A DNA stretch of 64,000 nt from Arcobacter sp. GTDB lineage: Bacteria; Campylobacterota; Campylobacteria; Campylobacterales; Sulfurimonadaceae. The stretch covers positions 1 to 64,000 of the forward strand of contig JAGXFN010000007.1 of the NCBI GenBank assembly GCA_024637195.1, written 5' to 3'. Position numbers and translations under genes: made by a program. This document shows positions 9,143 to 15,034 of the stretch, in pieces. Each line of letters opens with the position of its first letter. Within the stretch, counting starts at the first letter, position 1. The notes under the pieces are model-generated. The model ran no database searches and was not told the DNA's origin. It saw only the letters and a list, made by a program, of their open reading frames with translations.

Positions 9143-9868
9143 CTACTGCAAAAGTTTTATCACCTTCGTGTATTCCTCTTCCTCTGCCAGGTCTAAAGCG
9201 CTCATCCCATCGCTGTCTTTTACATTTTTCACAGCGCCCTTTGCCAGAAGAAGTTTCACCATCGCGACGTTACCGGTCTCTGCAGCAGCCATCAATGCAG
9301 TATGCCCTTCCTTGTCTTTTGCGTTCACATCGGCGCCATGTTCGATCAGATACTTTGCAGGCTGCGTATCCTTCTGCTCGCTCTGCGCCGCATACATCAA
9401 GGCCGTATACCCTTTGGCATCGTGAAGATTGACGAGTGCTCCTTTTTCAAGTAACAATTTAACCGCAGCAAGGTCTTCGCGGTGCGCTGCCGAGATCAAG
9501 GCCGTACTTCCGTTGTTAGTCTGTGCATTGACATCGGCCTTGTGCGCAAGCAGCAGTTCCGTGACCTTTGCATTCTGCTCATTGATCGCATAGATCAGAG
9601 CATTATATCCCGCGCTGTCTTTTGCGTTGACATCCGCACCCTTATCGAGCAGGAGCTCAACGATCTCTATATGGTTGTTTTTCGCTGCCCACATCAAGGC
9701 GCAGGCTCCGCCCTTTGAAGCCGTGTTAACATCTTCGCCCGCGTCCAAAGCCGCGCTCACCTTGGAAATATCACCCTTTTTAGAACCCGAAATCAAAGCA
9801 GACTCCGCGCCTAAAAGTGCGCAAGAGCATAAAATACCTGCCCATACTAAAACTGTAAATGATCGCAT
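9143..9868 (-). CDS. Exported ankyrin-repeat protein
   Basis: 241 residues: a signal peptide (about 1-20, ending in GAESA) followed by about six ankyrin repeats with the usual GxTALMxAAxxGxxxxVKLLLxKGAxVN pattern. Ankyrin proteins bind other proteins. The signal peptide places this one in the periplasm, like the AnkB-type proteins that support catalase activity in other bacteria, but no catalase is adjacent. The gene is convergent with the ppnP unit and shares a zero-base junction with it. The function of the individual protein is unknown. Confidence 0.85.
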   Translation of the reverse strand: MRSFTVLVWAGILCSCALLGAESALISGSKKGDISKVSAALDAGEDVNTASKGGACALMWAAKNNHIEIVELLLDKGADVNAKDSAGYNALIYAINEQNAKVTELLLAHKADVNAQTNNGSTALISAAHREDLAAVKLLLEKGALVNLHDAKGYTALMYAAQSEQKDTQPAKYLIEHGADVNAKDKEGHTALMAAAETGNVAMVKLLLAKGAVKNVKDSDGMSALDLAEEEEYTKVIKLLQ

Positions 9869-11914: not shown

Positions 11915-13081
11915 TTGCAGCGATTCACTTTAAATAAAAAGAAAATAGCAGCTATATTAATACTGCTCTTCCTTGTCTCTCTCTTTGCCCTGCACAACAC
12001 GTTTCCCCCTGAGCTGGGCACACTTGAAGCAGATGCTATCAAAGCCGCCTATCTGGAGGAAGAGACCCTGTGTTCTTCCAAGGCAAAAGCCGCTTATCCG
12101 TCATCCGAAAAAGACATGCTGCGCATAAAAACCTATTGCGGTATTCTTGGCAGATGGCAAGAATGCTCGACAAAAGAGATCCCTCTAAAACATCTCGAAA
12201 CAGAATTTTCGTCCCTGCAGCTCTGTGATTACCTAGCACAGGCCGATACTGCTATGGCGGACAAAAACAACAGTGCCGCCGCCACAGCGCTTGAAAAAGC
12301 TCTCTATCTTGATCCTAAAAATGACGAGCTCCATGCCCGCTTAGGCTCGAGTCTCTACGCGCAAAAAGACAAAGATCAGGCCCGTCGCAGTAGCCTCAAC
12401 GCCCTGCAGCTAAACCCCGACTCAGCCCAAGCACACATGACGCTGGGTCTGATCTATGCCGAAGAAAAGAATTATGAAGAGGCCTGGGCACATTTGACGA
12501 AAAATGTCCGGCTTCAGCCCAGTGCGGCCTCTCTTGGAGCGCTTGCACAGACCGAACTGAGACTTGGAAAAAGAGAAGAAGCGATCGATCATCTACAGCG
12601 CTCCATAGATGCGGGGAGCCGGGAACTCTTCGTATTTGCACAGCTGGGCGCCATTTACTGGGAGAAAAAGAGTTACGCAAACGCCGCGGCACTCCTTCGT
12701 GAGGCCTACGCTATAGCCCCGGAGAACTCAAGTCTTTTTTTAAACTACTATGAAGTCTCTCTTTTGAGCCCGACACTCCCGAGCCTGGAGGAGAAAAAAG
12801 CTTTTGTCGAGGCATTCAAAACGGACAAAAAAGTGATGATGCTTTACGAGATGCTGGAGATACTTGAGCTCTCCATCGCTCAAAAAGAGGTGCGCACCTC
12901 TTTGGACAAGTGGGAGAGAAATTATGCTGAAAAAAAACTCGACTGGTCCTTTTCGCAGCTCTTTGAATGGCTCGACAGCGCTTCAATAAGCGATGATGCC
13001 AAACAGCATATTAAAAAAAGTATCGGGTTTTTCATTGGACATCAGCAGATCTACAATCTCAAACACCAAAAAGGGTTCTGA
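11915..13081 (+). CDS. Membrane-anchored TPR protein
   Basis: 388 residues. An N-terminal helix (about residues 11-26) anchors the protein, and at least four tetratricopeptide repeats follow between about 110 and 275 (for example AHMTLGLIYAEEKNYEEAWAHL). TPRs bind partner proteins; the partner is not evident. The start is TTG with an AGGA site six bases upstream; no in-frame ATG fits as well. The stop overlaps the ATG of rnhB by one base (TGATG), so the two are translationally coupled. Confidence 0.8.
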   Translation: MQRFTLNKKKIAAILILLFLVSLFALHNTFPPELGTLEADAIKAAYLEEETLCSSKAKAAYPSSEKDMLRIKTYCGILGRWQECSTKEIPLKHLETEFSSLQLCDYLAQADTAMADKNNSAAATALEKALYLDPKNDELHARLGSSLYAQKDKDQARRSSLNALQLNPDSAQAHMTLGLIYAEEKNYEEAWAHLTKNVRLQPSAASLGALAQTELRLGKREEAIDHLQRSIDAGSRELFVFAQLGAIYWEKKSYANAAALLREAYAIAPENSSLFLNYYEVSLLSPTLPSLEEKKAFVEAFKTDKKVMMLYEMLEILELSIAQKEVRTSLDKWERNYAEKKLDWSFSQLFEWLDSASISDDAKQHIKKSIGFFIGHQQIYNLKHQKGF

Positions 13082-13629
13082 TGGCACTGTGCGGAATTGA
13101 CGAGGCAGGACGCGGTCCTATAGCAGGCTCTCTTGTTATGGCCGGTGTAATTTTGACAAAAGAGATCGCAGGGCTCAACGACTCTAAACAGCTCAGCGAA
13201 AAGAGGCGCGAAGCTCTTTTCCCGCTTATCATAGAGCACTCACACTACCATATCATCAGCTTTTCTGCGCTGGAGGTCGATACGCTTGGCATCTCAAAAT
13301 GCTTAAGCCAAGGTCTGCAGAGCATTATGCAGAATCTTCACAGCGACGACTTTCTTTTTGACGGAAACTCGACCTTCGGTGTCTGCGGCCTGCGCACAAT
13401 GGTCAAGGCGGATGAAAAGATTCCTGAAGTTTCTGCGGCATCTATTTTGGCTAAAGTAACCCGGGACACAGAGATGGTAGAATTTTCCAAAAAATTTCCC
13501 CACTACGGATTTGAGACACATAAAGGCTACGGTACACACACACATATCGAAGCGATCAAGAGACACGGCTACTGCGATATCCACCGCAGAAGTTTTAAGC
13601 TAAAAGCCCTGCAACCGACACTATTTTAA
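13081..13629 (+). CDS. rnhB: Ribonuclease HII
   Basis: 182 residues, complete. It cuts RNA in RNA-DNA hybrids and at single ribonucleotides in DNA. The signature CGIDEAGRGP with the first two acidic metal ligands is at residues 4-13, and the DGN motif and the C-terminal HKGYGTxxH segment follow. Like other Campylobacterota this genome also has rnhA (57966). It is coupled to the TPR gene upstream and followed 11 bases later by a small gene. Confidence 0.94.
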   Translation: MALCGIDEAGRGPIAGSLVMAGVILTKEIAGLNDSKQLSEKRREALFPLIIEHSHYHIISFSALEVDTLGISKCLSQGLQSIMQNLHSDDFLFDGNSTFGVCGLRTMVKADEKIPEVSAASILAKVTRDTEMVEFSKKFPHYGFETHKGYGTHTHIEAIKRHGYCDIHRRSFKLKALQPTLF

Positions 13630-13640
13630 AGGAATTTTGT

Positions 13641-13862
13641 ATGAAATCACTGGAATATATTCAGATGGCGCTAGACGAGCTCGACAAAGAGGTGCAGGAG
13701 TGTCTTATGAATCTCGAGATGGATATGACGGCAAAAAATGAAATAATGTTACCGCTTCTTCAGCAAAAGCGTGTCTTGGAGCAGACCAAGGAGGATCTCA
13801 CCTACCTCAAAGAGAACCCGCCCTCAAACGCAGGTGAATGCACCATGTATAAGCAGCGCTGA
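13641..13862 (+). CDS. 73-residue helical protein, unknown
   Basis: An acidic, probably all-helical protein with heptad-like spacing of hydrophobic residues (LDELDKEVQECLMNLEMDM), so a small coiled coil is likely. An AAAGGAATTTTGT site supports the ATG. It lies 11 bases after rnhB on the same strand and appears to end that transcript; the next gene is convergent. No family is recognised and no function is proposed. Confidence 0.6.
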   Translation: MKSLEYIQMALDELDKEVQECLMNLEMDMTAKNEIMLPLLQQKRVLEQTKEDLTYLKENPPSNAGECTMYKQR

Positions 13863-13871
13863 CACTTTTTC

Positions 13872-14378
13872 TTAGGCTCTTTTAAACAAGAGCTGATCCA
13901 AACTCACCCTTCCTGCGCCCTGACTTATCAAAACCAGCAGCATCGCGCTGTAATACATCACCAGCTCATACCCATTTTGCAAGAGTACGACCGTTCCTTT
14001 GACTGGCTCACCGTTAACAAAAGGGTCTTCCCATCCGCTGCCCGGCACAATAAAATGGAACCCATTCGCCCCATGCACCGTTGCAATCGCGACAATCATC
14101 ACCATAAGCAGTCCAATAGAGATAAACCGCGTCATCAAACCCAGTGTCAGCAACACCACGCCAAGCGATTCCGTTCCTGCTGCCAGATAAGCGTTCAGCA
14201 CAGGAAAAGGGATCCCTAGATGGCTGAAAAAATTGGCTGTGGCATCAATATCGGACAGCTTTGAGAGAGCCGGTCCGAAAAAGGTATAGGCCAAGATACC
14301 GCGAAGGAGCAGCAGGGGAAGGTCACGCCCCTTTTCAAAAATCGCAATCACATTTTCGTAGAGCTCTTTTACTTGCAT
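13872..14378 (-). CDS. DoxX-family membrane protein (HvfD-like)
   Basis: 168 residues with four predicted membrane helices and the DoxX pattern (LLLRGILAYTFFGPALSKL at the start, then TESLGVVLLTLGLMTRF). DoxX proteins are inner-membrane, often redox-linked or quinone-linked partners in oxidative-stress and metallophore loci. The gene is 30 bases downstream of a Gly-Lys-Cys repeat peptide on the same strand. That is the arrangement of hvfA and hvfD, where a DoxX protein accompanies a modified copper-binding peptide. The family call is firm; the HvfD role is inference. Confidence 0.83.
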   Translation of the reverse strand: MQVKELYENVIAIFEKGRDLPLLLLRGILAYTFFGPALSKLSDIDATANFFSHLGIPFPVLNAYLAAGTESLGVVLLTLGLMTRFISIGLLMVMIVAIATVHGANGFHFIVPGSGWEDPFVNGEPVKGTVVLLQNGYELVMYYSAMLLVLISQGAGRVSLDQLLFKRA

Positions 14379-14408
14379 CGATATCTCCTTGTTTAGGCTA
14401 TTGCTCTT

Positions 14409-14657
14409 CTATTTTCCGTTGCCACATTTGCCCGTGCCACATTTGCCAGCCTTCTCTTTTTTCTCATTGCCGTGTTTGCCGGATTTTTCTCTTTTGTCAT
14501 CGCCAGATTTTTCTCTTTTATCATCGCCGCATTTACCGGCTTTTTCTTTTTTCTCGCCCCCGCACTTGCCTTCATTTGCGAATACAGTTGATGATCCTAT
14601 CCCTGCCATTAAAACCGCGCCGAAAATCAATGCTGCTACATTAGCTTTACTAATCAT
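14409..14657 (-). CDS. HvfA-like precursor peptide with Gly-Lys-Cys-Gly repeats (candidate modified metallophore)
   Basis: 82 residues. A signal peptide (about 1-27, cleaving after VFA) is followed by a low-complexity mature region. That region has four GKCG units (Cys at 32, 43, 73 and 78), one of them the exact EGKCG, and a decayed SGKHG unit at 59-63, separated by Lys/Glu/Asp-rich linkers. EGKCG-repeat peptides of the HvfA/bufferin class are converted by an MNIO (DUF692) enzyme with a DUF2063 partner into copper-binding thiooxazole or related groups. A DoxX gene follows directly, but no MNIO or DUF2063 gene is in this window. A strong AAAAGGA site and an upstream TATATCAG box support expression. 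Modification here is inference. Confidence 0.7.
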   Translation of the reverse strand: MISKANVAALIFGAVLMAGIGSSTVFANEGKCGGEKKEKAGKCGDDKREKSGDDKREKSGKHGNEKKEKAGKCGTGKCGNGK

Positions 14658-14925: not shown

Positions 14926-15034
14926 AGACTCCCCTCCAGATACCTGCGGCACATAATCAAATCCGGTGTGCTGCTACGTTCCCGTCCTGACACGATTCCT
15001 GATAAAACTATTGCACAGGTCTAAAGGGAAGCAC
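14926..15034 (-). ncRNA. ffs: Signal recognition particle RNA (small bacterial 4.5S type)
   Basis: On the minus strand the tip hairpin is unmistakable: GTGTCAGG, then ACG-GGAA-CGT closing a GGAA tetraloop, then AGCAG and CACAC. This reproduces the conserved symmetric loop and tetraloop that bind Ffh. The flanks pair back for another two helices (CCTG with CAGG near 15019 and 14944; AGA with TCT; CCCTTT with the GGAGGGG side), giving a rod of about 105 nucleotides. The product forms the SRP with Ffh for co-translational membrane targeting. Ends are estimated from pairing. Confidence 0.82.

Follow-up and report, generated by a model that had tools for sequence, protein, structure and literature searches.

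MNIO enzymes have been described as acting on HvfA and bufferin peptides, and the corresponding NCBI families carry names such as 'modified RiPP' and 'maturation protein'. In the stretch of DNA that we analysed (the window, 64,000 nucleotides of contig JAGXFN010000007.1 from the Arcobacter sp. assembly GCA_024637195.1), a gene for a peptide of this kind is followed by a gene for a DoxX-family membrane protein, and no gene for a modifying enzyme stands beside them. Is the peptide modified by an enzyme encoded elsewhere, or does the pair work without one?

The gene pair

Both ORFs of the pair are on the minus strand (Table 1). The hvfX start lies 30 bp downstream of the hvfA-like stop, the two ATGs are each preceded by a ribosome-binding site (AAGGAT for the hvfA-like gene and AGGAG for hvfX), and a hairpin resembling a terminator was looked for in the gap between the genes and was absent. 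This spacing and the ribosome-binding sites suggest that the two genes are co-transcribed. The pair is flanked on one side by a 73-aa ORF and then rnhB, and on the other side by ffs. A family search (Pfam) with the 73-aa ORF gave no match. We ruled out a hidden third gene at the site, since the next genes are the convergent 73-aa ORF and rnhB. An earlier note on this DNA had described an 82-residue GKCG peptide with DoxX 30 bases on, and rnhB and ffs as the neighbours; we confirmed both ORFs and both neighbours, and add the strand, which the note did not give. Elsewhere in the window there is an ankyrin-repeat protein of 241 aa (9143-9868, minus strand) that looks secreted by inspection of its translation. 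The pseudaminic-acid genes, whose PseB is nearest to 2gn4, which we take to be an H. pylori entry, are consistent with Campylobacterota, as is the gene content in general.

Table 1. Features of the hvfA-like/hvfX site, in window coordinates.
Feature	Position	Strand	Remarks
hvfA-like gene	14409..14657	-	82-aa secreted-type Lys-Cys-Gly repeat peptide
Putative Sec signal peptide, residues 1-27	14577..14657	-	MISK...SSTVFA, next residue N; by inspection
Repeat region	14421..14573	-	EGKCG, GKCG, GKHG (Cys to His), GKCG, GKCG
Intergenic gap, 30 bp	14379..14408	-	holds the hvfX ribosome-binding site; no hairpin
hvfX ribosome-binding site	14385-14389	-	AGGAG
hvfX	13872..14378	-	DoxX-family membrane protein, 168 aa; PF07681, NF050144, AlphaFold
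73-aa conserved ORF	13641..13862	+	convergent with hvfX; landmark of the syntenic site
rnhB	13081..13629	+	ribonuclease HII, flanking gene; named by sequence
ffs	14930..15027	-	small SRP RNA, unrelated neighbour; 63.5 bits

The product of the hvfA-like gene has 82 aa, which read MISKANVAALIFGAVLMAGIGSSTVFA up to the putative signal cleavage and NEGKCGGEKKEKAGKCGDDKREKSGDDKREKSGKHGNEKKEKAGKCGTGKCGNGK after it. Its N-terminus resembles a typical Sec signal that ends in VFA ahead of an N, as judged by inspection rather than by a predictor. The peptide has four copies of GKCG (the first of them as EGKCG), a single GKHG and a further unit that lacks Cys, and the relevant positions of the repeat region are Cys32, Cys43, His62, Cys73 and Cys78. 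Composition-preserving shuffles of the mature part gave at least two GKCG in just 256 of 200,000 cases, against the four observed.

The NCBI model for HvfA, NF050137, scores the window peptide at 16.1 bits, under the curated cut-off of 19.5. Orthologues of the gene are present at the same site in G006, G024 and G042, and the model gives those of G024 and G006 22.3 and 17.9 bits. The HvfA-like identity proposed in the earlier note holds, as same-site orthologues in congeners sit in complete hvfABCX operons. With 4 Cys against a mean of 7, the window peptide has the fewest in the set (the G006 orthologue has 7), so the window's own copy may be weakening, though the copies of the clade are constrained. 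Its repeat units are all canonical and do not discriminate between peptides with and without MNIO.

HvfX

The DoxX protein of the window scores 70.1 bits with PF07681 and 118.9 bits with the HvfX model NF050144, for which the cut-off is 80. It was noted earlier as a DoxX partner to be compared with HvfD; the partner passes as a member of this family, and its name in the literature is HvfX. The AlphaFold model has a pLDDT of 92, and a Foldseek search for PDB relatives of it found none that were convincing. The third match was a vitamin K-dependent carboxylase, which is a membrane peptide-modifying enzyme, with weak values (E 1.7, TM 0.35), and we treat this match to a predicted model as a very weak lead only. 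The invariant residues of HvfX are identical whether or not MNIO (hvfBC) is present: R26, Y31, F33, K40, F51, Y64, E70 and G80, and further along R84, H102, G106, E138, G154, G156 and D161. A search among plasmids gave relatives from Moraxella and Pseudomonas at 34-35% identity, and one scan of genome contigs gave only a distant HvfX from a gammaproteobacterium.

Search for a modifying enzyme

The assembly that contains the window has 2.18 Mb in 15 contigs and is 89% complete. Profile searches across this 89%-complete assembly found neither MNIO (DUF692, PF05114) nor DUF2063/HvfC (PF09836). Because PF09836 performs weakly in this clade (it gives 26.5 bits on the genuine HvfC of the congener G024), we also used the congener's own HvfB and HvfC proteins as queries, and neither had a match in the window assembly. 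Of 31 selected genomes, only the three carriers already known had HvfB, and HvfC turned up in these three, plus a weak, stop-ridden stretch in G334. The negatives among the 31 include many single-contig genomes that carry HvfX.

The earlier note had no modifying enzyme in sight, and this now extends to the whole 89%-complete assembly, in which neither MNIO nor HvfC is detectable. Modification in trans by an MNIO encoded elsewhere, which had been offered as one of two explanations, is unlikely because MNIO and HvfC were not found here or in most relatives with the pair, finished genomes among them. We rejected an MNIO in trans as a candidate after both the family model and the congener HvfB queries returned nothing in the 89%-complete window genome or in the MNIO-free relatives.

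How common the pair is without the enzyme

As raw counts that ignore kinship, a family sample of 200 genomes had HvfX over the cut-off in 92, MNIO in 16 and both in 13, so that 79 of the 92 HvfX genomes, some of them finished, are without MNIO; the NF050137 peptide is in 64 of the 200 (13 with MNIO and 51 without, again with finished genomes among the latter). A phylum sample of 249 genomes, nearly all at least 90% complete, had HvfX in 30 and MNIO in 8 of these, counted in the same raw way.

We read 121 regions, which gave 115 scored HvfX loci, 93 of them in MNIO-free genomes. In 66 of these 93, a peptide bearing three Lys-Cys motifs or more lies within 3 kb of HvfX, usually just upstream; the other 27 have no such peptide within 3 kb, and 5 of the 27 are at contig ends. 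Across MNIO-free genomes the co-occurrence of HvfX and the peptide has an odds ratio of 8.8 (p=2e-9, with no correction for phylogeny). Within the family, a pair lacking the enzyme is the common arrangement rather than a peculiarity of a single draft assembly.

In published genomes with Buf_EGKCG precursors, 67 of 2,583 lacked MNIO (Antoine et al. 2025, PMC12452194, Table 3), and the authors suggested that, where a precursor has no linked MNIO gene, either an enzyme encoded elsewhere modifies it or it stays unmodified. MNIO-free precursors were thus a 2.6% exception there, whereas here they are in 51 of 64 family genomes, a comparison that holds for order of magnitude only as the HMM and the sampling differ. 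The literature that we searched had no paper naming both MNIO and Campylobacterota.

The same site with and without hvfBC

The 73-aa gene adjoins hvfX, in convergent orientation, in 19 loci from at least six genera, 16 without MNIO and 3 with it, and in several genera the conserved neighbourhood extends to rnhB. The 16 loci without MNIO likewise span at least six genera. The MNIO carriers at this site are the congeners G024, G042 and G048, three of the six congeners. The operon of G024 runs hvfA-hvfB-hvfC-hvfX, that of G042 is identical, and that of G048 is split over two contigs. G006 is 100% complete and has the same site and the same pair without MNIO.

In the HvfX tree, the window sequence is outermost in its genus, followed by G006 and then the three carriers, with the MNIO-free genera g7 and g13 outside. 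This topology favours a single insertion of hvfBC within the genus, as far as one gene tree can indicate. The rnhB tree, itself unresolved, is in weak conflict with a single gain: it joins G006 weakly with G024 (86/82), a grouping under which losses of hvfBC would be allowed. For HvfX, the three carriers form a group with G155, G173 and G191 (100/98); a constraint placing HvfB of the carriers and of G155, G173 and G191 in one clade is rejected (AU p=0.00013). Since the HvfB and HvfX trees are incongruent, the hvfBC cassette and the hvfA-hvfX pair have different histories, and the enzyme cassette moves on its own.

Selection on the peptide

In MNIO-free peptides, Cys codons have 24 replacement against 100 synonymous differences, with a neutral ratio of about 7:1, and in pairs of related MNIO-free peptides Cys is identical at 95% of the positions aligned, compared with 50-66% for most residues of the spacers; these ratios are approximate, as the aligner favours Cys-Cys matches, the pairs share ancestry and there is no phylogenetic correction. 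Lys and Gly codons are constrained as well, and the Glu, Asp and Asn codons of the spacers are near neutral. Computed this way, Cys is under constraint in lineages without MNIO, and the pairing of the peptide with HvfX is constant.

Conservation of the Lys that precedes Cys is 0.93 without MNIO and 0.88 with it. The small residue at Cys-2 is broken in 57 of 66 MNIO-free peptides against 6 of 21 peptides from genomes with MNIO, and Cys+1 is looser too. Some MNIO-free peptides have a charged residue following Cys; the substrates of that type that were tried with FonBC were not processed (PMC13097082). In peptides of genus g10 (L121, L132, L183, L185), whose genomes are without MNIO, KCN, KCS and KCD replace most of the KCG.

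A proposed mechanism and its relation to known systems

Judging from sequence, we think it somewhat more probable than the contrary that hvfA and hvfX form a self-contained two-gene unit functioning without the MNIO/HvfC heterocyclase, with the thiols of the peptide buffering Cu(I). The peptide would be exported via Sec to the periplasm, as its signal-like N-terminus suggests. There the thiols of its Lys-Cys-Gly repeats would remain free, and the peptide would bind Cu(I) or a different soft metal as a small metallothionein-like buffer. HvfX, a DoxX-type inner-membrane protein, would work on the peptide in its thiol form, or together with it (holding, loading or recycling it, for instance), and would not be limited to the product of MNIO. 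That HvfX works with the thiol form is suggested by the constant pairing and the identical invariant residues. The MNIO/HvfC cassette would then be an optional add-on in some lineages. MNIO chemistry uses O2 (PMC13097082), and one may speculate that the thiol version is therefore favoured in low-oxygen, sulfidic settings.

The closest known system is the hvfABCX oxazolin operon of nontypeable Haemophilus influenzae (EGKCG captophorins, or Buf_EGKCG), which likewise has a secreted GKCG-repeat precursor and HvfX (DoxX), and the congeners' operon at the window site reads hvfA-B-C-X. In contrast, the window locus and its assembly are without detected HvfB (MNIO) and HvfC, and the window precursor has only one true EGKCG and scores below the NCBI cut-off. 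Fontiphorin (FonABC) and bulbicupramide (MmrABC) share the repeated Lys-Cys-Gly core with the window peptide; unlike at the window locus, they are modified by MNIO and a partner. Bacterial metallothioneins and the Csp copper-storage proteins use multiple Cys thiolates as a soft-metal buffer. The window peptide may be likened to them by its proposed function, although unlike them it is a short, Lys-rich, secreted repeat peptide.

Competing explanations

Published work assigns copper binding to modified peptides, which counts against an unmodified copper buffer; the 27 MNIO-free HvfX loci with no such peptide nearby and the low Cys count of the window peptide also weigh against the proposed unit. 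MNIO and HvfC could be encoded in the unsequenced 11% of the genome and modify the peptide in trans. An assembly that is 89% complete, the presence of MNIO in three of six congeners and the still canonical GKCG units of the window would all fit this. We nevertheless find it very unlikely: G006, at 100% completeness, and many finished genomes with the pair have no MNIO, and where congeners do have MNIO it belongs to this same operon, whose window copy is intact and sequenced in full. The pair might instead be a decaying remnant that has lost hvfBC and whose peptide is on its way out. The low number of Cys next to G006, one unit with Cys changed to His and another without Cys point that way, and the weak joining of G006 with G024 in the rnhB tree permits the losses. 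Still, both ORFs are intact, Cys codons are strongly constrained across the MNIO-free relatives, and several genera retain the pair at this site in the absence of MNIO, so we consider decay unlikely.

The main rival to an unmodified peptide is that a different enzyme modifies Cys in the MNIO-free lineages, either HvfX itself or a flavoprotein (GltB-like FMN, or GMC/Gluconate_2-dh3). The invariance of Lys-Cys in these lineages speaks for it, as some other enzyme could recognise the Lys, and the weak Foldseek match of HvfX to vitamin K-dependent carboxylase is in line with it. So is the company that hvfX keeps: a membrane-anchored GltB-like FMN protein is downstream of it in 27 of 97 loci without local BC, mostly at 10 bp or less (and in 2 of 18 BC loci), and a GMC oxidoreductase follows it in 23 of the 97 against none of the 18 (p=0.02). 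Against this, the window site has neither flavoprotein, HvfX is without a solved relative, and Cys-2 and Cys+1 are under looser constraint than in peptides with MNIO. A GltB-like partner acting in trans was rejected, as the 89%-complete window genome has just a generic paralogue, 51% identical, against 63-82% for the hvfX-linked form. On balance we judge modification by a different enzyme to be unlikely. A fuller version, in which HvfX, alone or with the GltB-like or GMC flavoprotein, is an enzyme or loader acting on the Lys-Cys repeats and the MNIO cassette is a later addition to an older core, strikes us as similarly doubtful; if true, hvfA-hvfX would be an MNIO-independent system for peptide maturation or metal handling.

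Several neighbours of hvfX deserve mention in their own right. A GltB-like protein of the FMN/Fe-S type (PF01645) lies directly after hvfX at L129:5870-7621 and at 28 further loci in several families, and could be working together with HvfX. Gluconate_2-dh3 with GMC, or a GMC gene alone, follows hvfX at L092:4586-6741 and about 22 further loci, only in MNIO-free genomes. In the MNIO-bearing genus g14 (L105, L125, L159, L189), a DsbD-type thiol reductase is about 90 bp behind hvfX.

What the pair means for the family

An unmodified periplasmic thiol buffer for Cu(I) with a dedicated membrane partner appears most likely to us, and we favour the metal sponge that the earlier note gave as its other option. 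These genomes carry a warning that thiooxazoles should not be predicted from the precursor alone. Most carriers of the pair are without the enzyme, yet Cys and HvfX are constrained, which argues that the peptide and HvfX have a function of their own. The clade makes both the role of HvfX (DoxX) and the role of an unmodified Lys-Cys-Gly peptide directly testable.
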